NCBI GenBank assembly: GCA_015039365.1
Contig: WION01000376.1
Span: 1-51,357, forward strand
DNA from: Amanita rubescens
Taxonomy: Eukaryota > Basidiomycota > Agaricomycetes > Agaricales > Amanitaceae
Length of the DNA stretch: 51,357 nucleotides
Reading direction: 5' to 3'
In this document: in pieces, positions 12,822-43,893 of the stretch
Layout: every line of letters starts with the position of its first letter
Numbering within the stretch: the stretch's first letter is position 1
Translations under genes and position numbers: made by a program
The notes under the pieces: generated by a model
Databases searched by the model: none
What the model saw: only the letters and a program-made list of their open reading frames with translations
What the model was told of the DNA's origin: nothing

Positions 12822-15800
12822 TCACCTGCCCCGCCCCGCTCTTCTCCCCATCGTTCTGTTCTCGTCCTCTCCCCCCCCGCTACGCTGCGCCTCACTTGCC
12901 CCGTCCTCCCTCTCGGGCTCCCCCATCCTTCTCTCTCGTCTCCTGTTGCCTACTGTGAGCCAGCTGCGTATGTCTCCTCTGGCGTATGTGTTCCACTCTT
13001 CCATTACTCTTCCCTGGGCACTAGCCGCTGCTTGTTCCCTGCAGTTTTGGGTGCTGCGCTCCCTTGGCCCTGTACCGTTCCTCTGGTGCATCCTTGCCGT
13101 GTGTCTGTAACCGTCGAATAGGTCGCTTTGCGTTGTCGCCTGTTTTTTGTCCTGTTTTGACAGCCATGTTATGCGCTTTGTTTTTCTGACGAATTCGGTG
13201 ACATAGGTCATATTGCTGTCGTTACCCAAAAGTTTTTTGAGGCCTGTCATGTCACGTTTAACCATTCGACGGAGTTGGGCCCGCGGTTCGTTGTAGGCTC
13301 GGCAGTGGCGTAGCAGGTGGTCCACCGTCTCGTTGTATTGCTTGCAGCCTGGGCAGATTGCGGTTTTGCTTATATTGATGCGGTGAAGATGTGTGTTTAG
13401 GCCGATGTGGCCCGTTTTGAGTTGCGTCCATATGCTGCCTGTGCGGCGGCTGGCCTTCGTCAAGGCTTTCCTGTACCTTTTACCGCTTTCATAGCTGATG
13501 ATTCCTTTGAGCCTCCTCGCTTGAGGGGCCATACGCCAGGCCTCCAGCGCTGCTTCCTTTACTTTGAGCCGAATTGCTGTTTCGCTGCGGATTTACTAGC
13601 TGGCAGTGGTTTCCTGAACAGCTTCGGGAGTGCCGTCTTGGCGCTGCATGTGCCCGCACTCGCTGCCTTTGCTGCCACGTCTGCTTCCTCATTCCCCTTT
13701 ACCCCAACATGGCCTGGCGTCCATCTGATTTTTATTCTTACATTGTTGTTCCTATGTTTAAGTGCATTGATCTGCTCGTGGAATTCATCTAGAATGTACT
13801 TGCCTGGCCCTTGCTTGTTATCCGTGGATGCTATTATGGCTGCTTGGTTATCAACGTTAATCGTGACGGACTTCACGTTCCGCCTGTTCCTGATTGAGAA
13901 GACCCCGAGGGCCATCGCAGCGCACTCCGCCTCGTAAACTGTGTGTTCTGTAGTAGTCCCTAGATGAAATTGTGTGAGCGCCATTCTTTTTCCTTGCTTA
14001 TATATCACCGCCGCGGCGCCAACGCCGTCTTTTGTTAAGGATCCGTCTGTGAATATTTGATATTCAGCCCTGTCTCTGCTGCACTGCGTGATAGCTGTGT
14101 CTTTGTTGTTCGGGATGATGGTTTTTATGTCCGGGTCCCACGAATTGAGGTGGCGTATGGGCGTTACCTTCTCCATCGTGTCCGGCTTGATATTGTATGT
14201 GTGGAAGAGCTCATGTAGGGGGCTGGGGTGCTTTTTTACGTATCGTCGCGCTGTGCGGTGCACCATACCATGTAGGGGATGTCCTTTAGGGATTGTTGCC
14301 AGGCTAAGGGCTGCATTGTAGCGCCATTTGTCGACTGCTAGGTGTATCGGGAGTAGGTCTGACAGCAGGTTTAGGACGGTACTCGCCGTGGTTCTCATGG
14401 CACCTGTAATCATTATTGATGCTCGCCGCTGGACCGTCGCAAGCTGGCGCATGACTGTGACATTGTAGGTTGGGCTTGGGTTGGGCGATGTTAGTTTGTG
14501 GCGCCTTTGAGGAGAGAGGAAAACGTCGGCGGCGTAGAGTATTCGGGGCATTGCTATGGTGAGGTAAAGCTGGCGTACAAAGGCGGGGCTGATCCCTTTG
14601 CTGACACGAGCTAAGCGGCCAAATTGGTTGACCCACTTTTCGCCTTTTGCCAGGGCTGCTGCTATATGTGTTTTCCAGTTGAGCCAGCGGTCGATTGAAA
14701 CCCCAAGTAGTTTTGCCGATTCCTGTGGTCGGACCTCGTGTCCTCGTATGAGTATTGATTCACCTTCACCTTCTCTACCTGTCGTGATGTTTTTTCCCCG
14801 CAGGAAGTCGATGAGTTGGAACTTTTCTATGCCAAAGGTACAGTTGTGCGTGTCCGCCCATTGTAGGATACCATCATGCCTGTGTAACATGTCTTCAATC
14901 TTTCGATGAGTTTCTGTGTAGTTGCAGCCTATCGCGAGAATCGTTGTGTCGTCTACAAATAGAATAGCGTCCTCACCGTTTTTCAGGTTTGGCACGTCTA
15001 GGATGTCTGAGTTGTACAACATGTAGGCAATGGGCGAGAGTGGGTCGCCTTGGTCGAGGCCGTTTGTGATGACGAAAACGTCAGATACGTAGTCATCAAA
15101 CTTGAGTTGTGTTTTCCTGTTGCCCATTCTGCGCACTATCCAGTCGGTGATCTGTTGGGGGATGCCCCTTATGCGCATGTCGTGTACCAATCTGTCAATG
15201 CTGACGCTTGGGAAGGCACCCTTTACGTCTAGGAATAGCGCTGAGACAACTTTCCTCTTCCGCCATGTGTCTTTGACCGTCGTGGTTAGATAGTGGACCG
15301 CTTGTGTTGTCGTGTGGCCCGGGCGAGCTCCGAAGTGGTTTTTTGGCAGAATGTTATGCGTCTCGCATCTATTTGTAATTTCGTTAGCAATGCATGCATT
15401 GAGTAGGCGAGCAAACCCGTTCGAGAGTGAGATTGGTCTCCACGCATTGGGGGACTCATAGCTTGGCCGGCTTGGCTTCTTTAGGATGACTGTCATGGTT
15501 CGCGCCCATGAATCCGGGTAGTAGTTGAGGTCGAAGGTTGCTCGAAAAAGCGGTCCCAAGTGTGGTAGTAGGATCTGCTTGGCTTCCTTGAAAACGCAGT
15601 TTGGCGCGGTGTCTGGAGCTGTCGCCTTGTATGGGGCCATGTTGTCAATCGCTCTTTCGATCTGCTTGTTGGTTATTGGCTTGAATTCCCATTTTGGCGG
15701 GGGGTATGTGAAATCGCCTAGCACCACGTCCTGTAGCGGCTTCTCTGGGAATAGGGCTTCATAGAACATGCGGCTCTTCTGGTCGTTGGTTGTGGCGGTG

Positions 15801-17074
15801 GTGTCGTCTTCACTACCTCTTAGTTTTGCTTTGAGATTGGGTACCCTTGCGCGGCCCGCATCTGTGGGCTCACTGTTAGCATACTTAGCCGCCGTCCACA
15901 CCGTCGTCTCATTGAGGGATTCCAACCATTCAGCCCAGTGGTTGGTTTTAGCTTCACGTATGGCGGCTGTGTATTGATTGCGTAGGCGTCTATATTGTTC
16001 ATGCGCGGGATGGTCTAAGTTGAAGCGCTGGTTATAGGAGTTCCTGCCCTTTTTGGTAACTGCCTTTTTTAGCTTCCTCAGGTCGTTAGACCACCAGCGC
16101 TTCGCATGGGGGGAGGCCTTCGCTTTTGGGACGACTTTTTCTATTGTTTCTTGCACAGCTACATCGAGGCTCATTAGCGTTTGGTCAAAGGTACGAATGT
16201 TGGGGATGGGCTTAGGCTTTGGTATTCCGTTTAGATGAGCTTTCAAAGTTTTCCTGAATTCGTCCCAGTCGGTTTCTTTGAAGTTGAATCGTTCGTGTTC
16301 TTCGTGAAGCGTGACTGAGATGTCGATCTTGGTGATTATCGGGAAGTGGTCAGTGTTCACCGGTTGCTTTTCTGGTTCTGTGTTGCAGTAGATTAGCGCA
16401 TCGATCAGTGAGTGGGAGATAAAAACGTTATCCGGCCGTGTGAGATTGCGCGTATTTAGGGCTCGTAGCGTTGGGATGTCTTTAGGGAGGGCCATCTCCA
16501 TATCGTTGGTCATCGTCAGGTTAAGAACCGTTTGTGCACGTTCGAGGTTTGTTGGCGTGAACAAGTGAGAATTTCTATTTTCATCCCAATATGGGTGGTG
16601 TCGGTTGAAGTCACCAAGCCAAATCATGTGCTCGTTGGATTCTTCGTTGTGGTACTCCTGGGCTGCTTGTGATAGGGATCGTAGGGCGTCGTCGTTGTTT
16701 ATGTCGTTGTATATATTGAAGATGTTGATTGTTCCAGCGCTTGTCTGGAGCCGGATTGCGGTGACGTCACCAGAGTTTGTGTTTAGGGCGCTCCACGTGT
16801 CTGTGAGGATTGATATGTTGATGAGCATGACTGATCTCGTCTTTTTCGGGCTTGTATAATGGGTGTTTGGGTAGACGACCCTCCATTTTGAGTTTGCTTT
16901 GGTGTTAGTAAAACAGTCAATGAATGGCTCCTGTATGGCGCAGATATCGAACTCGCTAGTTCTTAAGGATTGCAGGAGGTCTTCCTGTGCATTACGGGAT
17001 TTGTTGACGTTCTGTTGCCAAAAGCGTAAATGTCTGTCGTTGAGCGGGGGTGTTCTTAAGGTTGTGCTAAACAT
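12822..17074 (-). CDS. LINE ORF2: endonuclease, reverse transcriptase and RNase H, with one frameshift near the C-terminus
   Basis: ATG 17074-17072 overlaps the ORF1 stop. Endonuclease motifs: QQNVNKSR, IQEPFID, WLGDFNRHHPYWDE, TRPDNVFIS and NTDHFPI (residues about 20-250). Reverse transcriptase: RPISLSNGFARLL, NHFGARPGH, ALFLDVKGAFPSV, LDQGDPLSP and catalytic LFVDDT (about 540-780). RNase H: IFTDGSL, YEAECAA, NVDNQAA and WTPGHVGVKGNEEAD (about 1020-1150), so all four acidic residues are present. The frame ends at 13559, 1171 codons in. The expected Cys/His tail (KTGHIGLNTHLHRI, CPGCKQYNETVDHLLRHC) continues in another frame to 12822. One missing A near 13592 in an A-run would explain this. 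RNase H stays intact, but the terminal zinc-finger region is cut off in the read frame. Confidence 0.93.
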
Positions 17075-18741
17075 TAAAATGATTTTGTGGGGTTGGGGCT
17101 AGCGGCTGGTGGCGGAGGCGGTAGCGGGTCTTCCCCTTTTGATCCGAACCAGCTGCCTGGTAGGACGTTTTGGATCATGGTACTAATGCCGGAGCCGTCT
17201 TGTCTGTGACCAGGGGCTTCAGCCTGCACGGCGCTTGAGGGGTCGGGGAGAGGGGACTCATTTGGTGTCCATGTGTACGTGTCTGTTTCTATGGGGTAAA
17301 ACCTATAGCGCGCATCAGGTGTGAACTTTCGGTAATGTTCGATACTTCTCTCAAAAGAGGGGCAGTCTCTGTCGGCAGCGGAGTGACCATTTTGTTTGCA
17401 GTTGGTGCAGCGGGGGGCTCCGGCGTGTTTGCAATCGGTGGTACTGTGATCCTCTGCACAACGGGCACAGGTGGGGGCACTTTCGGGGCATTGGGCTGCG
17501 CGGTGGTCGCCTTTGACGCTTTGACACTTGAAGCACCTAGTTGGCTCGTTTAGCAGCTTCTCGACAAGGATACGTTTGTTTTCTATAATTAGGCCTGTTT
17601 CAATGACCTGGTTGGCTAGCTCTCTCGTATTGAAACCAATGATGACGTGTGCGGTGCGCTGGCCTGGCCTCCTGCGTTCCGGGGCCTTGATGTATTTAGC
17701 GTGTGCTATGGCTTCCGTTGGTAGATTGTTGTTGGATTCCACCAGGTTGCGGCTTAGGCGGTCATCAGGGCTGAACTGGGTGGGTACAAATCTAGCGAGG
17801 ACGTGGAAGAGGCGCGCGTGGGTTGTATTGGCATCACCCATGTTGCTTGTGAAGCTTTCGAGGTTATCTTTGGATTTGAGCCAGACTGCGGCACTTTTTG
17901 AGTTGATTTGGTAGATAACGGCACCGCTTTTCGTGGTGGTGGCATGGACGAAAGCCGCTCCTTTGGGGACTGGAATACCTATGTTCGTCATGAGCCCCAA
18001 AGCCAAGTCTGCCTTCGTTACGAGCTCCCTGGCCGTGAGACGGAGTATGTCCCTTTTTGTCTCTTCGTTCCTGAAGGTGACGATGATCTGTCGTTCACGG
18101 TCATTGCCCTTGGCTATGGCTGAAGAGTGGTGGAGCGAGGTGTTGTTTACGGTTGATGCATATGACGGTTTGATCGGAAGGGCCATTTGTGTTGAAGGTG
18201 CCGCGTTGGTTGCGGGGATGGGCGGGGGCTGCGTGGTGGCCTGGGCGTTGAGTACGCACTGTTTAACTGATTCCATCCCCTTCTTTGTCTCCTCCATGTC
18301 CTTCCTTAATTCCTTAACAATTTCCTTATTGTCGGTTGCCAGTCTGGAGACTAGATCTTCCAGTCTTGTGATGGAGTCGCGCTGTGACTCTAGCTCCTGT
18401 GTCAGGTGGGCGTCGTGCTCTTCACATTCAAAGAAGGCGTCGGCTTCTTCTGCCTGCTCGATGACGAAGCAGATGCTGAGCATGCCGTCCGTGAGGAGTT
18501 TGATTGACCTCTTTGGGTTGGTTGCCAGCGTGCGGAGCGCTGTGAGTGCCAACTTTGCGGTCAGCATCTCTTCTTGCTTCAAGAGGTTCAGTCCAGATAG
18601 GAAGGACCTTGCGCTCTCAACGGAGGTTATTGTGGACTCAGCTGGGTTCCCAGGTTCAGCTATCTTTTTTGAGCGTGGGGTCTTCTTATCACCGCTGCTG
18701 TCTTTTTCTGCCGTACCCGCTGAGCGTGTACTAGCTGGCAT
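17074..18741 (-). CDS. LINE ORF1: nucleic-acid-binding gag-like protein
   Basis: 555 residues from ATG 18741. The N-terminus is basic and Ser-rich, followed by a helical, coiled-coil-like stretch (about 85-170, acidic and Gln-rich). A basic RNA-binding-like region follows (about 210-390). Then come three CCHC knuckles: CFKC..HRAAQC, CARC..HSTTDC and CTNC..HSAADRDC (about 410-460). Such proteins coat element RNA and deliver it to the target. The stop codon TAA shares its last A with the ORF2 ATG (TAATG), which suggests coupled termination and reinitiation. Confidence 0.93.
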   Translation of the reverse strand: MPASTRSAGTAEKDSSGDKKTPRSKKIAEPGNPAESTITSVESARSFLSGLNLLKQEEMLTAKLALTALRTLATNPKRSIKLLTDGMLSICFVIEQAEEADAFFECEEHDAHLTQELESQRDSITRLEDLVSRLATDNKEIVKELRKDMEETKKGMESVKQCVLNAQATTQPPPIPATNAAPSTQMALPIKPSYASTVNNTSLHHSSAIAKGNDRERQIIVTFRNEETKRDILRLTARELVTKADLALGLMTNIGIPVPKGAAFVHATTTKSGAVIYQINSKSAAVWLKSKDNLESFTSNMGDANTTHARLFHVLARFVPTQFSPDDRLSRNLVESNNNLPTEAIAHAKYIKAPERRRPGQRTAHVIIGFNTRELANQVIETGLIIENKRILVEKLLNEPTRCFKCQSVKGDHRAAQCPESAPTCARCAEDHSTTDCKHAGAPRCTNCKQNGHSAADRDCPSFERSIEHYRKFTPDARYRFYPIETDTYTWTPNESPLPDPSSAVQAEAPGHRQDGSGISTMIQNVLPGSWFGSKGEDPLPPPPPAASPNPTKSF

Positions 18742-18902
18742 ATTGTTCTTCGGCGTCTTTTGTGTATTTGTAAGGTAGGGTAGAGTGTAAGAGTATAGAG
18801 ATATTGCTACTACGACCGACTATAGTGTACTGCCCTTCCGTCCACCGATTATTTCGGGGTCCTGGTAGGGGTGCCACGTGGTAGAAGATCAAGAGGCTTT
18901 TT

Positions 18903-19295: not shown

Positions 19296-20361
19296 TCACG
19301 CGCCCGTCATCATCTTTAAGAACCTATCCCATTCTTCCTCTTCCATTCCGTAGCTTTCAGCTTGTGCGTCCGGGAATGAACCGGATCGTACAGCCTCTGC
19401 ATATTTATGAACGCCACCATCACGCAGAGGTTTAAGTTCCGCGAATCTACGGGCGAATTTAGGCTTGTGTCCGGCGTAAGTGCCTAGCGCGTCGTCTATC
19501 ACCAGAACCTGCCAGCGCGTCAGCGCTTCGTCATGATGCGCGCCACGGAGGGAAGAAAACGTACCTGACCGCTCGTCCAAGGCCCCGCGCCGATACCGAT
19601 CGTAGGGATCGAAAGCTTCTCCGTGATGTATTTCCCCAGTTCTTTCGGAACAGCCTCAAGAACGACGGCGAACGCTCCTGCATCTTGCATCGCCATCGCG
19701 TCGCTCAAGACGGATTTAGCAGCCTCTGCCGTTCGTCCTTGTACGCGATATCCAGAGAGTGCGATGACACGTTGCGGCAACAACCCTACGTGCGCCATAA
19801 CGGGTATACCGATCGAGGTGAGGCGGTTAACCATCCCCGCGATTTCTTTTCCTCCTTCCATTTTGACGCCTTCGACTTGTCCTTCGCGGACGAGTCTGAC
19901 TGCGTTTGAGATGGTTGATTCCGGGGAGGAGTGGTACGTTCCGAAGGGCATGTCGGCGACGATGAGAGGGTGGGAGGATCCGCGGCCTCGGAAAACGGCG
20001 CGGGAGTGGTGGATCATTTCGTCGAGGGTGAGTTGGGTTGTGGATGGGTAACCTAGGCAGACTTGGGCGAGGGAGTCGCCAACGAGGATGATGTCGATAA
20101 GAGGAGAGGATGAGCATGCGATGGAAGTTGGGTAGTCGTAAGCTGTGAGCATCGCGATGGGTGTTTTGGATGCGCGGAGGTTTTGTAGGGTTTGAATTGT
20201 GACTTTTTTACGTGCTGGAGGTGGGCGATGTGAGGTGGAAGTAATGGAGGTGAGTCGTATGACGTACCCGGCGTGGATGGGCCGAACTCGGTAGAGGAGG
20301 GGCGGAAGCTCATGTATCTCCTACCTAGAGCGAAGGACATGGAAGCGAGAGACCTTGACAT
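19296..20361 (-). CDS. panB: Ketopantoate hydroxymethyltransferase
   Basis: Exons 20268-20361, 19565-20214 and 19296-19508; introns of 53 and 56 nt (both GTACGT...CAG). They sum to 319 codons exactly, 318 residues. Transfers a hydroxymethyl group from 5,10-methylene-tetrahydrofolate to 3-methyl-2-oxobutanoate, the first committed step to pantothenate and CoA. Motifs: MLTAYDYP, DIILVGDSLA (metal-binding Asp), VADMPFGTY, VKMEGG, IPVMAHVGLLPQ, LEAVPKEL, IPTIGIGAG and VLVIDDALG. The first ~20 residues (MSRSLASMSFALGRRY) could be a mitochondrial targeting peptide. The gene diverges from 20482 across 120 bp. Length and motifs are normal and there are no breaks. Confidence 0.96.
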
Positions 20362-27791: not shown

Positions 27792-28219
27792 TGTGGTAGG
27801 AACTTGGATGTGAGTGCGCAAAGTGGTGTTGTGTCCTACGTGAGGCGAATGCATTTCCATAACGAGCGAGTGTACTCGGACAAACCTTATCGTTGAGAAC
27901 ACTCACACGTTTCCCACTCCCGTTCTCGCCGTCCCCGTCAACGAGGAAGAGTCTGAAGAAGCTGACCTCAAATGCGGAGTCGTAGTCGGAGCGACATAAG
28001 CCGAAGGTGGAGTAACCTGCCTACTCCCCTGCTGTTCTTTCCCTTTTTCCCAGCGAGAGCCATGGTGAACCCACGCAACCTTATACTCTCGAGTTGGGGT
28101 TGATCGGCTTGCAACACCTTGCCATTCAACCTAGCCTGGTGCGCGCACGCTCTTAATCGACTCTTGGAAAGCAGGCATTGGATGCCGCTGCTATTTACAT
28201 CTATTTGTGCGCCCGGCAC
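27792..28219. promoter_or_regulatory. Divergent intergenic region between the HeLo-like gene and DPH5
   Basis: 428 bp between two divergent starts. The minus strand may hold a 5' exon of the HeLo-like gene (a protein-like, Ser/Thr-rich frame at about 28050-27910). No clear TATA box. Confidence 0.3.
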
Positions 28220-29221
28220 ATGTTTTATCTTATCGGCCTCGGTCTCTGCGACGAAACTGATATCACTCTTCGTGGCCTCAATGCCATCCGAGGTGCCTCA
28301 CGCGTATATCTCGAAGCTTACACGTCGATCTTGATGGTACCAAAGGAACGACTCGAGAATTTCTACCAAAAAACTCTCACTCTTGCGGATAGAGAAACGG
28401 TGGAGTCAAACGCGGACGAGATACTCAACGGAGCGGATAAAGAAGACGTGGCTTTGTTAGTCGTGGGCGATCCATTTGGGTGCGTCTCCGTCCACTCCGA
28501 TCTATGTGAAATATCCGAGTCTAACAGCAGAATTCATCGCAGTGCTACAACCCATACAGATATCATTCTACGCGCCAGACACCTTAACATCCCCACCCAG
28601 ATCATCCATAACGCTTCCATTCTCACCGCCATCGGTTCAAGCGGCCTTCAGTTATACAACTTTGGCCAGACCGTCTCTCTCGTATTCTTCACACCCTCCT
28701 GGCGTCCATCTTCATTTTATCATCGAATATCAGAAAATGCCAAGCTCGGATTACACACACTCGTGTTATTGGACATTAAAGTCAAAGAACAGAGCGAGGA
28801 AAACTTGGCGAGAGGAAGGAAGATCTACGAACCTCCGAGATACATGTCTATTCCGACCGCGTTGGAACAGATGAAGGAGGTGGAGGAGGAAGTGGCCGAA
28901 GGCATATTAGACCCGAAAAAAACGCTCGTCATCGCATTGTCGCGGATGGGCGCACATCCACCACCATCGTCGTCCGCCAGCGATGATCATGCTCCTAATC
29001 CGTCATACGAAGGGGAGCATATTGTGTCCGGTACGCTTGACGACCTGTTATCGGTCCCTCCGGAAGATCACCAACGGGTCTTTGGATCACCGCTTCATAG
29101 CCTGATTGTGGTGGGGAAGAGACTTCATGTGCTGGAAGCGGAATTTGCAGAAGCTTTCGCTGTGAACAAGGAAAATTGGAGAAGAGTGGCAAAGGATGAG
29201 TATGGTGTCGCACTAGGATAA
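28220..29221 (+). CDS. DPH5: Diphthine methyl ester synthase
   Basis: Exons 28220-28479 and 28543-29221, one 63-nt intron (GTGCGT...CGCAG). 313 codons in exact frame. Uses S-adenosylmethionine to tetra-methylate the modified histidine of eEF2 in the cytosol, the second stage of diphthamide synthesis. Motifs: FYLIGLGLCDETDITLRGL at the N-terminus, VYLEAYTSIL, LLVVGDPFGATTHTDIILRA (SAM site, split by the intron), IHNASILTAIGSSGLQLYNFGQ, LLDIKVKEQSEENLARG and LVIALSRMG. The C-terminus has a Ser/His-rich insertion (about residues 255-275) relative to the usual family. Length is close to normal. A short broken copy of its 5' end lies at 24350. Confidence 0.97.
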   Translation: MFYLIGLGLCDETDITLRGLNAIRGASRVYLEAYTSILMVPKERLENFYQKTLTLADRETVESNADEILNGADKEDVALLVVGDPFGCVSVHSDLCEISESNSRIHRSATTHTDIILRARHLNIPTQIIHNASILTAIGSSGLQLYNFGQTVSLVFFTPSWRPSSFYHRISENAKLGLHTLVLLDIKVKEQSEENLARGRKIYEPPRYMSIPTALEQMKEVEEEVAEGILDPKKTLVIALSRMGAHPPPSSSASDDHAPNPSYEGEHIVSGTLDDLLSVPPEDHQRVFGSPLHSLIVVGKRLHVLEAEFAEAFAVNKENWRRVAKDEYGVALG

Positions 29222-30772: not shown

Positions 30773-32474
30773 CAGGCGACAATCGGGAAGCTCGCATGCT
30801 CTGGTACGGCGTCCTTAGAAGAAGGTTGCATGTATATTAAATAGAAAATAGGTGACTAATGAGCAGCCAAGTTGGTATACGCCAGAGCTGAGGAGCGAAC
30901 AAAACGACGCGATTTTTGGTGACTCCAGAATAGCCCTGAATCGTATCGATAAGTTAGTCACAGGATATTTTTTTTCAACTGTCTTCAACGCTGGGGTGAA
31001 GTGTTGACGAGACGACAACACCTCTGTAAGACCGAAAAGTTATCCCCAAGGCGAAACGTCTCATCGAGTCATTTGATTCATCAGCCGTACAGTGAAACTC
31101 CACGTCATTTACATTCCCTGCAAAAAGAAGGAATCGTTAGTAAACAAAATTTCCATATCGACGTTCTTACCTTTCTCGCACACCATCAGATTTGGTTTGA
31201 CATAACATTTTCCCTGCACCTTTAGAGCACTGCGCAAGGCACAGATAGGCACAAGGTCCATCCGTTCAATTCATTCGGGATTCGCAAATTAAAAATGGTC
31301 AAGCAGACTTGAAGTCGTGAGGCAGTTGTGACAACTCGTGTGCGTGCTGTGGTCTAGAACTTTGGAATTCTGTGAAAAAGATGGATTAACTTTTCGCCTT
31401 GGCACGTCAATCGTGTATAATTGAACCATCTCCTAGCGATATGACAATAGGGGTCGTTTAGTTAGTTCATACGCGCTTGTTGAAGCCGAGAAAGGAAACC
31501 GAACAAACAAGCGTAACGCGTAACGTCCGCGGCCCGGAACGGCACCCACATCTTAAGCTTATCTTGTGGCACAGCGGCTTCTATCCTCCTTCACGAAGAC
31601 CACGCTAGGAAAGAACCCTTCCTTTCTAACATCATCAAAACTGACGCATTAGCTCATATCCGAATTGCCGTACCTGCGACATGTGTCATCCATAAAGTAC
31701 AAGGATTCCATATTTAGCACGGTTGGCACACACTTGATATAAAGTTCCGAGTCGCGCGACCTCCTGGCCGTTGGTTCCTGAGGCACGCTCACACCTTATC
31801 TCCACTCGTAACTGGTAATAATAATAAACCTCCGTTAACGTACACTAGAGATAGAGAGTGCAACTTTGTTTCTTTCATACACAATATATACATTAAAAAA
31901 ATACCGAGTATACGTATAGAGAATCTCACAATCCGCTAGTTAGCGCTGTTTTTGACAGTTTTTGTACGGGTAGTGTAGTAGATGCAGTAGAACATTTGAA
32001 GAAAATTAGATTGTAAGAAGAAAAGAAAGGAGACTCGGCATGTATGTACTTGGCGCATTCTTGGTTGTTGAATAGAAACCTTCTATAGATGTTGTTTGTT
32101 GTACGACGCGAAAAGGAATGAATGGATCGGACGCCCAAGTGCTCGTGTAAGTCGTGTTCGTATTTCGTTTGTCTAAATATGATAATACAACCCCGTCAGC
32201 TCCTCTCTCTCTCCATCAATTATAATCAAAACCACGCACCACCGAAACCGAAAAACTCGCACCAACACCCGACGCCGCTACTAAAAACCAGAAGAGAAAA
32301 AAAAAGAAGACAGAAATACAACCGCAACCTAGGTATAGATCAAAGAAATCATTCCTTCAACCCCAAAAAAAAATTCAAAAAAAAAAAAACAAATCGAGGG
32401 ACACGGTATAGGAAGCGAGTAGTTGGATATATATATAAAAAAAACACTTCTTTTTGTTTTTCGTTCGTTTGAGT
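30773..32474. other. Gene-free stretch
   Basis: No gene recognised. The last 500 bp (31900-32474) are A-rich with several A-runs and probably hold the OPT gene 3' UTR. The rest has short frames only. Confidence 0.4.
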
Positions 32475-35400
32475 CTATGATTGGTGGACGGGAATGCCAC
32501 CAGATGGAACCGCCCTGAACGCCTTCCTCCTCCAATCCACGTCTAAAAAAAAACAATTAACCAAGGCGACACAAGGGACAAGCAACTGCACTCACTATTC
32601 ATAAACACGGTATTCCCCCACCAATTCACCTGAATCGTTCCCCCTTTAGGAAACTGCAACGTGAAAAAGATAAAAATCAACGAAATCACAGTCCCACTAT
32701 CCATCGCCGCACTGGTAACATAGTTAAACTTGCTCCACCAAGCGAAATTGCGTTTCCTAATCAAATACTGGAAAATGAAACCAACAAGGAACCAAGACGA
32801 ATAGTTGATACCCGTCGCGGGCGGAATGGCCGATACGCCGTTAAGAATGACAGGTGTGCTAACCCATCGAACCCAAGACTGCGGATACCGCCTAGCATAG
32901 AGCCAAAACGGTAACGGGAGAAACACGCCGACGATGATAGCGTACAATTGCGGGTGGTATATCGATCCAGCGCCAAACTGTCGGCTGGGACCGATCAAGC
33001 CCCAAATAGCCGAAGCGGTAAAAAAGACTTGATTGTGCGGGCAAGTGAGGAAGCTCGCTTGAGTAGGCGTACAGATATCCGCCACGTTTGCGAATATCCA
33101 CTGTTTCACTCCGATTTGGACAAACGCCGCCAAGACGGTTGCGACTAGCTGCGCTACGAACGTCGCGCGGGGTGGGACTTTGATGTAATGACCCAATTTG
33201 AGATCTTGCACGAAAGATGTTGCTTCAGTTAGAGTTTGCACGGAATAAGCCTTGAACACCATATTCGCGAATGGGTTCCCGGGGAGGAGTGTGCCGGGGA
33301 TGATTTGCGCCAGGAGATTGAGCGTAATCCCCTGCCCCGTCATTGCATAAATGAACCCCGACGGAAGGACATACAACACCGGCAACGCCACCGAAAGGAG
33401 CAAACTCCACACCGGCATACCCGTATTCCATACTTCTACTGCGACGATCGCCATGGCGAAAAAGACGCAAAATACACATAGGTACCACCAATCGGGGACT
33501 TCGGGGTAGTTTCGCATTAGTTTGAAGTGAATGTCGTCCGCTTCGACGCGGATCCGTTTGAGGCCGTTGAGTAGTGTCCGGCCGTGATAGAGGAGGGTAT
33601 GGACAATCACGCAGGTGGATAGTGCGAACGCGATTAGGTAGGTCATGGCGTAAGTTGCGGGGAGGAAAAGCGGAGAGTAATCACTGTAAGCTTGCGGGTC
33701 GAATAGGTCTTTGGGGGTTAGAACGCGCGTGATATTGTAAACTTTGCCGAATCGATCATAAGGGTTATTGTCGGATATAGGGAAATATGCAAGATACCAG
33801 CTCTGGAGCGGGAGGATTTAGAATGTGAAAACAGGGAGAAAAAAAAGACGGGCTCACGTTGGTATAGTACAATACTGGAGTTAGGATCCAGAAGAACAAC
33901 ACGAATCCAATGAATATCTGGAATTGAGCCCACCACGGAACCATGAGCGGACTACCTGTCCACGTGATTTGGCTCCAATCAAAAGTGAGCAAGGACATGC
34001 CCAAGCCAGAACGGACACCGAACAGTTGATTGACGACAACGTTGTTTGGCGCAGCCCAGCATATAAACGAAAACACGGAAAGTGCCTCGAACAGATATCC
34101 TAAGAACGCGAAATATCAGCTTCAATTCCCAGAAAACAAACCACACTCACCCGGAAGGAAGAAAAACAAAAACGCAGCCACAAGCACAATAATAAAATAC
34201 CTGTACCTCGACAACGGTCTCCTCGTCAACCTTCCCAAAAACCCAAAAGGACCCTCCTCCCCACTCGCATCATCATCTTCCTCCGCATGCAACGTATTCA
34301 GCAACGTACAAGCCACCAAATTCTGCGGCCACACCATACTAGCCGGCCAAACCAAAAACCGCCTACACAACCCCGCCAATCCGAACCCAGTCAACTGCGT
34401 CGCCAGCACAAGCACGAGCTGGAACCAATACCCAACATCCAGGTTGTAAAACTTTTCAGAGGTAACAATGGCGTTGAGGGCGTACGGACTGCCGACGGCG
34501 ACGTTGGCCATGATGTAGACTAGTACGTGTTCCTTGATGTTCCATGGCCCGGGGTTGAGGGAGAATTCGAGGACGTGGGGGATAGTCATTGGATTGACTA
34601 GCCGAACCAAGGGGGTTGGGAGGGAGGCGGGTACGTAAGCGGGTGGGAGGTGAGGTACTGGGACGCGGTAGGATGCGATGGGGAGGGAGAAGGCGAGGAA
34701 TTTACCCATTGGGTAGGATATGAGGAGGAGGACTAGGGGTACGACGGTAGGTGCCGGTGAGCGGAAGTTGAAGAATACGTTGAGGGCTCTGGGGGGGAAT
34801 GCGGGGTTAGTGCGGAAAATAAGATGGAATAAAAATACTCACCCTCCGACTGTACATAGGAATAGACCGATAAACCACATTCGGATCGTCATAGCTGGCA
34901 TATCTGGGTCGTCAATGTTGGATACGGACGCCCTAACTTCAGGGTATGGACTATCCTCTTCTTCAATCGCATCTAGGTCGAGTTCCATCCTACGAGGGGA
35001 GAAAGAAAATGGGTTCAGCGACGTGGTCGACATGGAGGGATGGAACGAGGAGAACGAAGGAAGGTATTAAGAAGGGTGCGGAGGGCTGTCAAAAGCTGAC
35101 AACCTTCTTCTTTGGCTGAGGGCATCAAGCCAAGAAGCCCTAACGAGAATCCGAGCGGATCGTCGCAATGAAACACCAAACTCACTTGATAGATCCTTCC
35201 CTACTCGTTGCGTCCTCCTCCAACATGCTCGGGGTGAGGCTCATGCTCTCCGGGATTGACGGCGGTTGACCTTTAGACCTGACTTTCACATCTTCCATCA
35301 TAGTTCGATCCATGTCGTCTGAGAAACCACATTCCGCATTCCCGGCAGCGCTTATCGGAGCGCTGACGATGCTTTCCCCGCGTCCCCGCGTGACGGGGAT

Positions 35401-35928
35401 AGACCTTGCACTGACGTCCGGTTCACTACCGTCCTCTAGCTCGCGGTTTGGCAAACTGATCCTGACTTCTTTCGAAGAACCGGGGCGGACACTCGTGTTG
35501 AGGCGTTTGAGTCTATATGGATCGTTTTCTGCTGGGTTAGAGTGGGAAGCGGTTGAAGGGGGGGATTGCGGGGGTGGTTGTAGTTGATAAGGTAATGGTT
35601 GTAGGTGGGATGGAGATGAATAGACTGATTCGGCGGGGAAGCGAGAGTATGATGGGTCGAATGTGGGAGAAGGAAATGTGACGTTGGCAGCAGCTGTGGT
35701 GGATGGGCGGTTGAGAGACTGGTGGTCGTCTAGAGGATTTGGGTCTGGATTTTGACCTGCTGCTCGTCTAGGATCTGTACTGGGAGGTAGAAAGGCAAAG
35801 ACATCTTCGTCCTCCGATTCTTCTTCGTACTCTTCGTCATACTCGGGATATTGCCCTGGGTTATACGTAGTAGGTCGCTGGTGAGCTAAAGAAAAAGCGT
35901 CAGAGACTGGACGGGGAGGGGGAGACAT
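32475..35928 (-). CDS. OPT-family oligopeptide transporter
   Basis: Exons 35186-35928, 34843-34989, 34151-34788, 33858-34099, 32596-33802 and 32475-32542; introns of 196, 54, 51, 55 and 53 nt. 1015 codons close exactly. Proton-coupled uptake of small peptides across the plasma membrane (or a vacuolar membrane). Hallmarks: FSLNPGPWNIKEHVLVYIMANVAVGSPYA, the NPG and KEH motifs of the family, then about 14-16 hydrophobic segments, FDWSQITWTGSPL, PWWAQFQIFIGF, GQGITLNLLAQIIPGTLLPGNPFANMVFK, IWGLIGP, GINYSSWFLVGF and NWWGNTVFMN. The first 248 residues are a Pro/Ser-rich acidic cytosolic extension (EYDEEYEEESEDEDVF) encoded by one exon and set apart by the longest intron. It is a likely site of regulation by phosphorylation. 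The end is short and basic (WRRKAFRAVPSGG). Confidence 0.96.
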
Positions 35929-37562
35929 GGCTAAAGCGCCAGCTCAGAAGGGGGAGAGAACGAGACTTTGAGAGAAAGAGAGTAGTGAGGCTGGGAAGTT
36001 TGAACCAGGCACGGGTGATGTGCCTGGCATGTGTGCCCACAGCCACGCCCGCAAGAAACCTGTCACTCTAGTCCTTTCTAGCTCTTCACTATCCGTTCTT
36101 CTTTACTGTTCACTCAATGCTCGTGTCAGGCACTCTCCAACATCCGGGTTCCTGGCTGATTTAAACCGAATAATAATGCACAGCCTCCATATAGTCCCCG
36201 AGCTGTGTACTACTATACTGTGTTCGATCACTTTTCCAGTGTTGATCATGTCGTCACAGACCAACACCGTCTTTGAATATTTGAATACGTAGTGAGACAG
36301 GACAACGGCACTAACGAATGGCGCAATTACATAAGCCGTACAGCTATCTTTAGACGACTACTACTATCCCCTCGGATATGGGCGGCCACTTCCAGGACGA
36401 AATCTCTCTTTTGTGTCTCGGTCAGAGTTGCACACGTCCCTCGGCAATGCACCGTACTCCATTCCACTTCACTCTGCGTAGATGCCACCTAATCAGTCCA
36501 TCGTCAAGCTCGCTTCTCTTAGTATCGCCTCGCCCATTCCCTGGATTATTTTACGCGGTTGTAATCATTCCTTGCGCCGGGTGTCGTGAGAGAATGGCCA
36601 ATACACCATCGCCAAGGAAAGCGGGAGAATAGAAACAGCTTGATCTGACGGCACTGTCCTCCAACAAATTCTGCGTAATACGCCATATGCTATATTGCGA
36701 CAAGTTATTTACGCTTTGTAATACGGGCCCGTTGGCAAATTTACGAGGAAGCACCGGAAAACACTTTGTCAAATTTGTGCCACACATATTCAATGGCTTT
36801 AGTAACATTGCGTTCACGAAAGACCCAGTCAATGACCCTTATCCAATCTCCGACTCTGACGCAACTTGTGATTAGACATGCGGCGTTTCAAGGGCAGGAT
36901 ACCCTGCCCCGGATTTGGATGAAGGCTCGTTATCCTGAGCCTGGTTGAACCTTTATCGATTATCATTTAGGATGGCGCTGTCTTCGGCGTGATGCAGTCT
37001 TTTTAAAACTTGCAGTTCGTCTCTTTTGGATATCTGCATTAGCCACTTCCTGCCCATATCGAATAAAAGTCAATGATTCCTATTGCAACTCGAACGAATT
37101 ATTTACACTTCCTTGCTACGCTAATGACAGCGATACATCCCCATGCACGAAACATGGGAAAGGCATGTTAAGGGAGGAGAAAGAAAAAACAGAGTCGGTC
37201 AGCGACCCGCGCTTGAACCGAATAACATACTTGGCCGACGTAATCGCCGATTCATCGGCACTAACCCCATTCACTTTTGTCAATCCTCATCGAAACCATA
37301 TCTTCAAACTTGACCTGATTCGCACCGTCCAGACAGGTTATTGATCAAAGACTTTAGCAAAAAAAGTAGCAACACACCGGGCGATACGTGCTCTTCGGAT
37401 GATACATTTCTCCACAGAAGAACCGGGTCAGGACTGAGAGGCGGCAGGTCTGCCTAGTCGCAGGTCTGTAGATTCTGGCAGTAGATTAGAGGACGTAGAT
37501 AGAGGAGGCGGATATCAGGCGATGGGGAACAGGAAGGGATTGCAGCACCTTCGTGCTACCAT
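35929..37562. other. Gene-free stretch upstream of OPT
   Basis: Should contain the OPT promoter next to 35928. Short frames only; no motif recognised. Confidence 0.4.
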
Positions 37563-38994: not shown

Positions 38995-41900
38995 TCACCC
39001 TGCCATAAATTGTCCATAAGTAGTCCATGACTGCAAAGTATGTACATGCCTACCATCAATGCGAGTCACCTGGCTATAGAGTAATGTGACCAAATTTTGA
39101 TGGTCAGAGCACATAAATTCAGGGGTAATCTCCCTCTTCAGCTTCTGAACATAGCCTTTTTGCTTGTATTGATCCAAGGCATCAGTGACTGATGGCAAAA
39201 ATGTTTTATTGATCCAAAAGGATAGCTTGGCAATGATAATAATTGCTTCAAAGTTTAAGCATAAATACAGTAAATGAAAAGGAATACTTTACAAACTAAG
39301 AGCTGGCAATCAGTAGGCTTTTTGCAATTGCATCAGTTGTGTACCATATGTGAAAAAAAGAATAAAAATACCTTGATGGAAAAGTGCTTGTGCTTGTCTC
39401 CAAACAGGGAGAAAAGTTCATACTGGTTACATATGAGATAGAGTAAATCATCCAATATGCATGTCATAAGACCTACAGACTAGCATGAAGATTGGTATTA
39501 AAATCAATACCTCATGAACCTGCTTCACTCACCTGAAAATCAAGGAAAGTGATATAAGTGAGAGGAATGTTGAAGTGTGTAGTTGAAATGAAATCTTACA
39601 ATCTATGATGATAATAATGTAAAGGGAAGACAATTGGAAAAGATAGGACAACATGCTCACTTTCTGAGATGTAATGATTCATCAGACATTCATAAATTGA
39701 GGTATGCTGAGAATGCAGGTCAGAAAATTTGTGATGTCACTCACAAGCTGTTGGTCAAAGGGAAGATGTGATGAGACTGTTTCACAAAATGTGCAATGTC
39801 ACTCACTCCCTATTGGTCATGTATGAGATTGCTCATTACAAAATCAATGTCACTCACTTCCTGTTGGTCATAAGAAAAGATGTGATGAGATTGCCACAAA
39901 ACATGCAGTCTCACTCACTTCCTGTTGTCCATAGGAGAAGATGTGATGAGATTTTACAAAATTTGCAATGTCACTCACAAGCTGTTTGTTATAGGGAAAG
40001 ATGTGATAGGCTGCCTTTCACAAAATGTGCAATTGCTCACTTGCTGTTGGTACTGGGTTAAGATGTGTTAATGTTGAAATGTGCAATGTCACTCACTTCC
40101 TGTTGGTGATAGATAAGGATATGAAGGGGTTGTCTTTCACAAAATGTGCAATATCACTCACAAACTAGGAAAAGATATGATGAGACTGGCTTTCACAAAA
40201 TATGTAATTCCTCACTTGCTGATTGGAAAAGATGCAATGAGACTGCCTTCCACAAAATCTGCAATGTCACTCACAAACTGATTGTGATATAAAATGTAAT
40301 GAGATTGCCTTTCACAGAATGTGCAACCCCACTCACTCCCTTGATTGGAAAAGATGTATCATGTGGACTTTCTTTGTGTAATGTCACTCACTCCCTGTTG
40401 GTGATCAGGAAAGATGTGATGAGACCATCTTAATGTGCAATGTCACTGACAAACTGTTGGTGGTGCCAAAAGATGTGATGTGGCTGCCTGTCACAAAATC
40501 TGCAATATCACTCACAGACTGTTGGCAATAGGAAAAGATGTGATGAGACTGCCTTTCACAAAGTGTCCAATGACACTCACTCCCTGTTGGTGATAGGAAA
40601 AGATATGGTGAGACTATCTTTCACCAAATGTGCAATGTCACTGACAAACTGTTGGTGATAGGAAAAGATGTGATGAGGCTGCCTTTCACAAAAGCTGCAA
40701 TGTCACTCACTCGCTGTTGGTGAGAAGAAAAAATGTGATGAGACTGCCTTTCATAAAATGTGCAACTTGTCACTCACTCCCTGTTGGCAATAGGAGAGGA
40801 TATGATGAGAATGCCTTCCTCAAAAGGTGTAATGTTACTCACTTCCTGTTGGTGATTGGAAAGGATACATATGATGACAAAATGTGCAACATCACTCACA
40901 AGCTGTTGCTCAAAGGAAAAGATATGATGAGACTACCCTTTACAAAAATTTAAATGTGCAATGTCACTCACTCCCTATTGGTGATGGGAAAAGATGTGAT
41001 GAGACTGCCTTCCACAAAATCTGACATGTCACTCACAAGCTGTTGGTGATAGGAAAAGATGTGATAAGATTGCCTTTCACAAAATGTGCAATGTTGCTCA
41101 CTCCCTGTTGGTGATAGGAAATGATCTGACAATACTGCCTTCCACAAATTTGCAATGTCACTCACTCCCTGTTGGTGATAGGAAAACATATGATGAGACT
41201 GCCTATCACAAAATCTGCAATGTCACTTGCTTGCTGTTTGTCAAATAGAAAAGATATGGTGATCAGAATAGACTGTCTTTCACAAATTTGCAATGTCCCT
41301 CACTTGCTGTTCATCATATGAAAGATGTAATTAGTAAGACTGCCTTTCACCAAATATTCAATCTGACTCACTCCCTGTTGATCATAGGAAAAGGTGTGAT
41401 GACACTGCCTTCCAACAAAATTCTCTAATGGTGCTTACATCCTGTCAAAAAAATACATACATAGAGCAGCTTTTCAGAAATATTTGCAATGTTACTCACA
41501 TACTATAAGCCATGGGTTACAATCTTTTGAACCACTAAAGCAGTTGACATGCTGCTAACCTTCTACATTTATTTGAACAGATGTGATGAGACTGTTATTT
41601 CCAAAAATTGCAATATTACTCACAATCTGTAGTATTTTCTTGTGTCCAAATTGTCTTGCAGAAGAGTGGCCAGCATCACTCACTTCCTTTCAGAATGGAA
41701 TTAGCACATTGAGTTGGGAGGAAAAAAACATTATCACTGACTCTCTTTTACCATAGTATTTTATATAATGAGCCCACATCTCAAAAAAGTATCACATACA
41801 TACATCCTATTTGTTTTGAATTGTGTGAAGAGGCTTTGAAAATGAGAAATATTACTGTCTGTTATTTTTGGACAAGATGTAATGTTTATAAGCAAACAGA

Positions 41901-43893
41901 AAGGAAATGTTGCTTACTTCCTGTTATTAATCCAATGAGGTCTTTTGAGACTTTAGACTACCATATGTCACCAACTTTCTATTGTCCATGGAGTTGTGTC
42001 TGATACACTTCAACCTCAAAGTTGCTTACTTTCTTTAAGCAGGTCAGATGTGGTGTGAGGCTGTGTTTTATCACCCACTCCCTGTCCATGAGAGACTGGA
42101 GTGACAAGTCTGCTTACAATGATAGATTGACTCACTTTCTATTGGTCATGTAAATTGTAATGCATCATGGAAAATCAAATTGAGTGATGGCACTCACTTC
42201 CTGTAGATTATGGGACAAGACTGCTGATCACAAAGAAAGCATTGCTCACAAACTGTTGTCATGAGACATTACTATATCAGATCTATGCTAGTTTAATATC
42301 ACTTACCCACTGATATCAATTTCATCAGATCCTGTCACCAAGAATATCATGTGACAACTAACCTGTGCTTCACTCAATTGTTTATTAGTCATCTGAAATA
42401 TTACTACTCCTGTTTTCATGTCAAGGCATTGGAGTGTCACTTACCTCCTGTTAAATCTTTTGCAAGTATCTATTGTCATATGAAGGCCACCTACCTCCCT
42501 GGACACCTATTGCCATTAATGTTTCCTAAGCTGATGTGCAGTTTGACAAAAATATGTATGTACATACCCAGAAATGTGGAAATTTTGAAAAAACTATGAG
42601 AACAACATCACCCCATGCCAAAGGTTCATGTTTCAGAACATGTCTGAACAATATTAATGCTAATAAGGGACATTGTGCATTTGTCCTCACTGAAGTGCAG
42701 ATCTAACACAAAGGTCAAGATTATTCATCTGTGTTGAAACAAATAGCTGATGTATGCAGTCATCATCTATTGCATCAGCAGTTTTCAGGGTTAATTCAGG
42801 ACAATTCTTCTCTGGTAAATCCATGTCTATCAAAAAATATTATTCCCATGTTCAGAAAGAAATCTACATTGTGCCCACCTTCTAATAGCACATATGCCCT
42901 GGGAGGATATTTGGCATTCAAAACTTTAGGAAGATAAACTTTCTGAAAAGTGACTTCAGCAATTTCCCTGGCCCTCCCCCACTTATCTTCATCCTTTCTA
43001 TCAATCAAGTTGACATATTCACTGTCTATTTGACCATCAAACTTAGTGAATATTACCAATAAAGGAACTGTAAAGGAAATATTTACTAGTCAGTACTGTT
43101 AGATTTTGCAGCACCTTGGCCAATGGAAAGGAGGTAACAATAGTCAAGTGTAAACAATCTCTCCAAACCAACAAGATGTGGCATGTGTTCATTAGGGCTT
43201 ACCTCTGCCTGTCCCTTTATTGAAGAATTCAAGTTCTGCAGGCAGAATTGGGCGAGGGCTGTCCATGGGTATACAGTACCTACAGAAAGCCAAATCAGAC
43301 AGTACTGTATTGAAAGGGATGAAGCAAGATACCAGATTGCATGCAGCTGATTCTTCAGCTCAGTTTCTGCACACCTCTTTTCAATGAACTTCCAAGCAAT
43401 CTCCAGTTCCTCAGTTGATCCAGATTCAAAACCCTGAGAGTCATGGAAGATAAAGTTACTTCCAGGGTATGTAATTTGATGCTCAATATCATGCTGGCCT
43501 CTCTGTTATGTGTCATTGCATGTGAATGGGCACATCCATATCATTAGCTGACCTCAAGTGATGGCATCAAATGATTCTCAGACTGTTCAAGCTGATTACC
43601 TGCAAGAAACTCAACAGTTAGTAAGGAAGCACAAAACTCAGACCAACTCACCATCCTTGTCATATATGATGGGCTCTGTTGCCTTTGCTACACCACAGAC
43701 CTTCTCAAGGATGGTTGTTTTGCCTGCATTTGCCCTCCCAATAACAAGGATGCGAAAGTGTGGGCAAAGATAATATTCCCTGAGCATTTGAACACGTGTC
43801 TCATCTGGATTTGATATGATATTTGTCAGTCAAGGACTAGCAATACACATAAATTAGCATACTCAAAAGAGGTACACCAGTTGCGGCAGCCAT
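38995..43893 (-). CDS. G-domain (AIG1-like) GTPase with an array of 47 single-codon exons
   Basis: ATG 43893. Ordinary exons 43863-43893, 43652-43804, 43553-43599, 43333-43502, 43203-43279, 42879-43067, 42691-42826, 42568-42643 and 42495-42506; introns of 58, 52, 50, 53, 135, 52, 47 and 61 nt; 297 codons in exact frame. Motifs: RILVIGRANAGKTTILEKV (P-loop), FIFHDSQGFESG (DxxG), WYCIPMDSPRP and LLVIFTKFDGQ (TKxD). The family is large in basidiomycetes; a signalling or defence role is inferred only. An exon GAG (42445-42447) and a 30-nt exon (42363-42392, MTNKQLSEAQ) follow. From 42309 to 39600 come 45 more 3-nt exons, then 39372-39479 (SVGLMTCILDDLL...), a 3-nt exon TTT (39293-39295) and the last exon 38995-39225 (LSFWINKTFLPSVTDALDQ..., TGA). 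All internal exons are phase 0. The protein would be about 465 residues. The join between 39600 and 39479 is ambiguous. Inclusion of the microexons is not proven. Confidence 0.8.
39293..42447 (-). repeat. Array of 47 three-nucleotide microexons in intron-like units
   Basis: On the minus strand the pattern AG-NNN-GT recurs at intervals of about 50-85 nt. The triplet is preceded by CAG (mostly), TAG or AAG. It is followed by GTGAGT (mostly) or GTGAGC, GTGAGG, GTAAGC, GTCAGT, GTATGT, GTTAGC, and once GCAAGT (41225-41230, a GC-AG type donor). Triplets by count: GGA 10, GAA 7, TTT 6, AAA 4, CAA 4, CTT 4, GAT 2, ATT 2, and once each GAG, TGG, ACA, AGA, AAG, TAT, CGA, TCT. None is a stop. Units between about 39740 and 41380 are near-identical (GTGAGTGACATTGCA...TATCACCAACAG). 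Those above 41400 have unrelated intron bodies yet keep the same spacing. Confidence 0.9.

Follow-up and report, generated by a model that had tools for sequence, protein, structure and literature searches.

In the window analysed here, the 51,357 nucleotides (nt) at positions 1 to 51,357 of contig WION01000376.1 of Amanita rubescens (assembly GCA_015039365.1), a GTPase gene on the minus strand appears to assemble part of its protein from exons of a single codon. The gene holds 46 triplets, each enclosed by a splice acceptor and a splice donor, and we put the probability that every one of them is a genuine one-codon exon, joined in order into a linker of the GTPase, at about 0.88. This reading, drawn from sequence comparison, is preferred because 18 of the 46 triplets match homologous proteins in order, stop codons are nearly absent, the splice signals are in place, the frame remains open over 451 codons, and paralogues share the layout. 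An earlier sequence-only reading of this DNA had proposed selected single-codon exons and not a chance pattern, which is well supported by the order match to homologues, the near-absence of stops and the dominance of the 3-nt length. Its array stands, but its count of 47 becomes 46: the 47th triplet, probably 39295-39293, makes better sense as the closing three bases of a 25-nt exon at 39317-39293.

The gene model was obtained over 44,500-38,800 of the minus strand by joining exons by hand and with a script, and its 59 exons (the triplets plus 13 longer ones) sum to 1,353 nt in one stop-free frame. Exon 1 (43878..43893, 16 nt) opens with a putative start codon picked by eye, and is followed by exon 2 (43652..43804), which, from the model and homologues, encodes the P-loop; exon 3 (43553..43599); exons 4, 5 and 6 (43333..43502, 43203..43279 and 42879..43067), which encode the G domain, the last of them with TKFD; exon 7 (42691..42826); and exon 8 (42568..42643), whose C-terminal letters, also compared with homologues, are FPHFW. 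Exon 9 (42495..42506) has 12 nt encoding VSRE, aligns with VGRD of the homologue P0005, and closes the nine upstream exons in phase 0 ahead of the first triplet, as originally stated. That triplet is GAG (E, 42445..42447). After a 30-nt exon (42363..42392) encoding MTNKQLSEAQ, the counterpart of MANKQLSEAQ in P0005, come 45 more, from TGG at 42309 to ATT at 39602-39600: a run of 17 with unrelated intron bodies (41372..42309, WFEKGKKETDREIKYDG), and a run of 28, read from frame, splice signals and family pattern, many of whose introns are repeat-like and about 62 nt long (39600..41306, QQGGLGLEGRFGSFGGFQFEQLEEGLKI). Exons of 108, 25 and 176 nt follow with the phase kept, so that the 30-nt and downstream exons are in phase as claimed: the first C-terminal exon (39372..39479, SVGLMTCILDDLLYLICNQYELFSLFGDKHKHFSIK), one encoding PTDCQLLV (39293..39317), which by eye resembles ATECQLVV of the homologue P0017, and a third, backed by family matches (39070..39245, IIIIAKLSFWINK and on to LLYSQ), where the model stops, the gene's last exon lying beyond.

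Introns measure 46-81 nt inside the array and 120 nt after the final triplet, and those modelled in the gene range over 46-135 nt. The GT-AG borders first described hold for 57 of the 58; the remaining one, in the array at 41169..41230, is a GC-AG intron (GCAAGT...CAG) with its donor at 41230. Within the 120-nt intron, near 39534 on the minus strand, a zero-length AG|GTGAGT resembling a recursive splice point is seen by eye. The gene is present in three copies (window, C14:118100-128000 and C283:7000-16900) that are identical over 5,101 nt, which points to a recent duplication or a redundant assembly and makes allelic or duplicate comparison uninformative.

Codon order, exon length and stop codons

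Homologues were sought with the spliced product, giving 1,138 at E<=1e-3, of which the best 120 were listed. Among those listed, the best named matches are gene models of A. rubescens (F5887DRAFT) and A. brunnescens, and others are open reading frames (ORFs) of short JGI contigs, including P0001, P0005 and P0017 on contigs of 1.4-1.9 kb. From VSRE to YDG, VSREEMTNKQLSEAQWFEKGKKETDREIKYDG of the window aligns without gaps to the continuous VGRDEMANKQLSEAQWFEHGKKDTDKQIVYDG of P0005 with 24 of 32 residues identical, and the run of 17 triplets agrees with P0001 at 15 positions and with P0005 at 12, values that none of 100,000 shuffles reached; together with GAG this covers the 18 matched triplets. 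Compared with the 48 residues F..I of P0017, a paralogue at C1:30870-34923 has 46 as ordered triplets, 38 of which are identical; the highest count in 100,000 shuffles was 16 (of 48 rows, one overlapping-register TGA row and the last L were left out). The two residues missing as GT-donor triplets are a G, present with a GC donor, and an S on a 4-nt unit; a W preceding the series, at 31250, also has a GC donor by eye.

Of 26 JGI ORFs looked at, eight carry the linker, all intron-free and on contigs of 1.1-1.9 kb, and five of the eight run into the C-terminus of the family. From their length and their intron-free ORFs, these contigs are probably transcripts. The genome itself gave no candidate for an uncut array peptide, whether retrocopy or unsplit exon, with queries of 74 and 88 amino acids (aa), while the control, an 82-aa C-terminal exon, gave 148 matches.

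A search for splice-site chains that was blind to coding still found 33 exons exactly 3 nt long in this gene, and the final model has 32 of them. In the window and L061-L065, two byte-identical copies of the window gene among them, [CT]AG and GTRAG[TC] stand 3 nt apart in 259 cases and at each other distance from 0 to 12 in 2-12; over fifteen stretches, some overlapping and two being those copies, 545 gaps of 3 nt compare with at most 18 of any other length from 0 to 15. Throughout the 75.7-Mb genome, with the backwards pattern and an N4 version as controls, CAG-N3-GTGAGT (CAGNNNGTGAGT) occurs at 6,499 places against 460 backwards, the N4 version (CAGNNNNGTGAGT) at 473 against 498, and paired units 30-60 nt apart at 3,758 against none. 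The exon length of 3 nt is therefore far beyond chance, as such gaps dwarf every other length counted, and it is spread over many loci.

The triplets also behave as codons. None of those in the window is a stop, as first noted. In the genome, the matched pattern was found with TAA or TGA at 2 places (backwards control 15) and with CAA or CGA, one base off a stop, at 998 (backwards control 7), a few places being counted doubly since a gap can end at two points. Among 372 units from 11 arrays, without the identical copies L061 and L062, there is no stop against 26.7 expected from composition by position, a figure that serves as a guide since the units are related and do not form an independent sample. 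A looser scan of the fifteen stretches does show stops inside some arrays; the one in the window, AAG|TGA|GT located 4 nt downstream of a GAA codon, is a register artefact.

Introns and the origin of the array

The introns of the array have GTGAGT-type donors and CAACAG-like ends, and a branch-point-like TATGAC is found in 134 of 372 against 2.5 in shuffles, an excess partly due to shared ancestry. In 353 of the 372 units the codon ends in A or T, in 18 in G and in 1 in C, so that the splice signals lie mostly in the introns; next to the donor, single codons with a final C or G seem to be avoided. Three nucleotides are too few for both neighbouring splice complexes to be accommodated at once, and for this lack of room the introns are probably removed sequentially. 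Under intron definition, the spliceosome would excise the 46-81-nt introns singly and in succession, joining the codons in order to form the linker that connects the G domain with the C-terminal helices.

Paralogues were compared over ten of 29 chains, excluding duplicates, short chains, L032, L033 and L067 (where the chain skips F), L047-L051 (stops) and L064. Across the ten, identity is 92.8% for the first 13 codons and 83.4% for intron bodies at equivalent positions. Intron bodies at different positions of one gene are 64.5% alike, close to the 61.5% of shuffled sequence, which agrees with the earlier statement that splice signals persist where intron bodies are unrelated. Introns at equivalent positions being alike across paralogues and those within a gene unrelated, the start of the array is an old, shared set of unrelated introns.

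The later part of the array is of another kind, a tandem repeat with a period of about 65 nt. Near-identical introns in many copies, such as characterize introner-like elements, are found in the family: variants of one 62-nt intron sequence reappear in arrays on C1, C3, C13 and others among the places listed. Past the array start, introns resemble one another more: in the C8 gene (L070), with 45 units and 53-nt introns, the difference per site is 0.087 in introns and 0.46-0.61 in codons, and 13 byte-identical introns follow six different codons. A probability for these 13 was rejected, because the group had been picked for its identical introns and only the whole-array comparison counts. The corresponding values in six other arrays are 0.19-0.43 for introns and 0.38-0.79 for codons; in the C1:30870 array, whose introns are unrelated, they are 0.59 and 0.48-0.81. 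In L070, three units are duplicated side by side, which adds LQK (intron identities 1.0, 1.0 and 0.96), and LER, QR, RY and ER are further repeated blocks there. Codons of this array are associated with the intron after them (1 of 500 permutations) and not clearly with the one before (47 of 500).

The L070 pattern fits a tandem duplication of the codon with its following intron. Each duplication would add whole codons in frame, after which the codons would diverge and the introns stay alike, to give a cassette that is hypervariable codon by codon. Against such an origin, block duplication by the same rule was absent from the five other arrays examined (one in six overall). A serious rival for the origin, although on balance a doubtful one, is the insertion of introner-like elements at every codon boundary of an existing exon. 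It would account for the near-identical introns beside differing codons in L070, the 13 identical copies behind six codons included, and for the 17-codon start, where unrelated introns interrupt a conserved stretch of protein at every codon. What insertion leaves unexplained is the exact 3-nt spacing, for which it has no reason, because an intron placed anywhere leaves the mRNA unchanged, whereas duplication of the unit requires such spacing; moreover, the block duplications of L070 carry their codons with them.

Other possible fates for the triplets

Several observations weigh against one-codon exons throughout the array, or fit them poorly. For the last 28 triplets no matching continuous protein was found among the homologues; a protein search limited to residues 284-400 returned nothing at E<=1, with poor sensitivity, given that even P0001 was missed. 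None of the JGI proteins with the linker is the product of the window gene itself, and the standing of their contigs as transcripts comes from length and intron-free ORFs. P0001, P0005 and P0008 carry the linker and miss the C-terminus of the family, and a second group, P0011, P0057 and P0083 with the more distantly related P0110 and P0132-P0134, stops shortly past FPHxW. Both could be the outcome of incomplete splicing or of contigs cut short. The 4-nt unit at the S of P0017 in the C1 paralogue breaks the rule of three. In five family loci, L047-L051 (three of them distinct), forced 17-codon chains hit stop triplets, so some copies are relics or spliced otherwise, and in L048 and L051 the acceptor beside AAA proved to be missing on inspection. 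The annotated A. rubescens model P0060 joins FPHYWV to the C-terminal part with no linker, which is the shape that a gene finder skipping the array would write and also the one expected if the array were one large intron. Finally, synonymous change at the array start is very rare among the ten paralogues (pS 0.019 against pN 0.083), which is not what simple purifying selection predicts. Although pN exceeds pS, a dN/dS reading was set aside, since third positions are almost all A or T and silent sites are therefore not neutral.

We take the last 28 triplets to be spliced in like the first ones and all codons to be included constitutively. Variable inclusion, by which one gene would make many isoforms differing by single residues, had been raised by the sequence-only reading, and is improbable. 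P0001, P0005 and P0008 diverge after the array start and several other JGI ORFs end near FPHxW, as it would allow; yet the P0017 ORF holds the complete ordered series, and the strong GTGAGT-type donors would argue for efficient splicing. The diversity lies instead between gene copies. In P0021 and P0024 the flanks are 95.5% and 94.6% identical and the linker 53.2% over 47 aligned residues, with 21 gap columns, and the distance from FPHYW to REIL is 77 in the former and 60 in the latter. The linker thus appears to be the variable part of this pair, which, since the flanks differ too, looks like separate genes or alleles and not like isoforms.

It is very unlikely that the whole array is a single large intron, or the relic of a minisatellite with splice-like motifs, and contributes nothing to the protein. 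The tandem repeat of the later part would suit such a reading, as would the fact that most annotated Amanita proteins reaching FPHxW end within about 30 residues of it and that P0060 skips the linker, even though these are gene models and not transcripts. A relic, however, would have no cause to match the order of a continuous protein in two different paralogues, to be almost free of stops genome-wide or to favour 3 nt over every other exon length, and at some 3 kb such an intron would greatly exceed the 46-135 nt of the other introns modelled in the gene. Equally unlikely is that the triplets are way-stations of recursive splicing whose 3-nt pieces never reach the mRNA: AG-N3-GT does resemble the zero-nucleotide recursive sites described in PMC13149111, and one zero-length site is seen by eye at the array end, but way-stations need no coding content, whereas these codons are conserved, nearly stop-free and spell a homologous protein, and the fifteen stretches have 15 sites of zero length compared with 545 of 3 nt.

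The product, its gene family and known systems

The product is a P-loop GTPase of a fungal G-domain family by the homology of its G domain to named proteins and by the P-loop motif GRANAGKTT and the motif TKFD in the model. Pfam MMR_HSR1 scores 19.1 bits, below its cut-off of 21.9, and the top Foldseek matches are of the BDLP and Irga6 type (IRG-/dynamin-like) with a query TM of only about 0.2-0.3, so that a relation to that fold is a lead only. In an AlphaFold2 model of P0017 (mean pLDDT 77), the array-coded stretch, about residues 327-375, comes after the G domain and ahead of the C-terminal helices. Taken in blocks of ten residues, the region 321 to 360 has mean pLDDT of 38-48, the lowest together with the N-terminal block 21-30 (47), and residues 361-375 are modelled as helix with block means above 80. 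The model is consistent with the array coding for a flexible linker.

If the triplets are exons, the exon would here be at its in-frame minimum, and the spliceosome would build a segment of protein residue by residue, dozens in a row. Protein length and sequence could then vary by the codon without a frameshift, and how very short exons are recognised would become a directly testable question. More tentatively, and with the odds somewhat against it, the array may be a spliceosome-dependent cassette of codons in which unequal exchange adds, removes or shuffles residues in frame, an engine of hypervariability serving perhaps self/non-self recognition and with a layout that may extend across the Agaricomycetes. 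That the linker has a role in recognition is a guess based on the number of copies and on how variable they are.

At least 148 C-terminal exons are present in the genome, and the arrays belong mainly to this one GTPase family. By hand count, 100 listed places of the matched CAA/CGA pattern form 20 clusters, 15 of them with a family exon within a few kb; three (C13:194k, C31:16k and C45:115k) have no family exon among the matches listed, and two (C13:303k and C13:358k) are of other sequence. At C3:123000-142800 (L064 and L065), 80 and 34 triplets are clustered with a C-terminal exon between them; a G-domain match was sought in both stretches and none was found.

Among the annotated Amanita proteins compared that reach FPHxW, none continues through the linker into the C-terminus. 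P0036, P0067 and P0100 extend about 38 to 52 residues past it, and P0100, from the contig of the C1 paralogue, stops by eye shortly after KHNEVD, the exon directly before the triplets. In Mycena, Athelia, Lactifluus, Lyophyllum and Galerina, too, family models frequently stop at FPHxW or shortly past it (e.g., P0107, P0109, P0117, P0119 and P0123), with P0150 and P0105 as exceptions. Arrays of single-codon exons may be hidden in the relatives from Mycena, Athelia, Lyophyllum and Lactifluus, and, if the triplets are exons, many gene models of this large fungal GTPase family are cut short.

Elsewhere in the window, long minus-strand ORFs at 12822-18819 resemble by eye a non-LTR retrotransposon, one of them (17074-18819) with zinc-knuckle-like CX2C motifs and another (13559-17098) with stretches like endonuclease, reverse transcriptase and RNase H; a strong AT skew at 12-20 kb spans this candidate element. 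Further candidates seen by eye are ORFs for a ketopantoate hydroxymethyltransferase (19520-20320, minus strand), a diphthine synthase (28157-29221, plus strand) and an oligopeptide transporter (32543-35943, minus strand).

A long array had seemed without precedent. In the open-access literature we found no description of single-codon exon arrays, either in general or in Amanita; within the genome, the window gene is no isolated case, as the layout recurs across a large gene family. Micro-exon genes (MEGs) have successive exons shorter than about 36 nt whose lengths are multiples of three, and with 46 exons of 3 nt and others of 12 and 30 nt the gene has that layout. The MEGs of Schistosoma have runs of small exons, usually multiples of three, which are hard to annotate and encode variable proteins (PMC10526429; PMC10399815). 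A gene of this kind has 10 to 20 such exons, given as 6-81 bp (3-81 in the abstract) and mostly 15 bp, which are separated by introns of 0.1-5 kb, and its product is secreted (PMC10526429). The Amanita gene differs from that account in its 46 exons all of 3 nt, its introns of 46-81 nt, its array, much of it a tandem repeat, and its product, a GTPase linker; coming from no flatworm, and having neither long introns nor mostly 15-bp exons, it is MEG-like in layout only.

The exons of aphid bicycle genes are reportedly longer than one codon. These genes form a large, fast-evolving family with many microexons of one shared phase, nearly all phase 2, and one of them, megacycle, has more than 100; unlike the Amanita arrays, no tandem repeat of codon plus intron figures in that description (PMC9168663). 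Single 3-nt microexons or one-codon insertions are also known, for example in RPS24 and PICALM, but as far as these accounts go they are isolated, in contrast to a run of 46. Among filamentous fungi, Trichoderma Xlr2 has a functional microexon, the first according to its authors, which acts as one switch and not as an array of codons (PMC11121469). Introner-like elements are groups of similar spliceosomal introns that proliferate within a fungal genome (PMC4457414; PMC9860276); the known ones are spread among genes, whereas the Amanita introns are found every 3 nt and mainly in one gene family. Recursive splicing resembles the Amanita arrays in a likely stepwise removal and in an AG near a GT (PMC13149111), and differs in that the pieces between the Amanita sites would, on the reading preferred here, be kept as codons.

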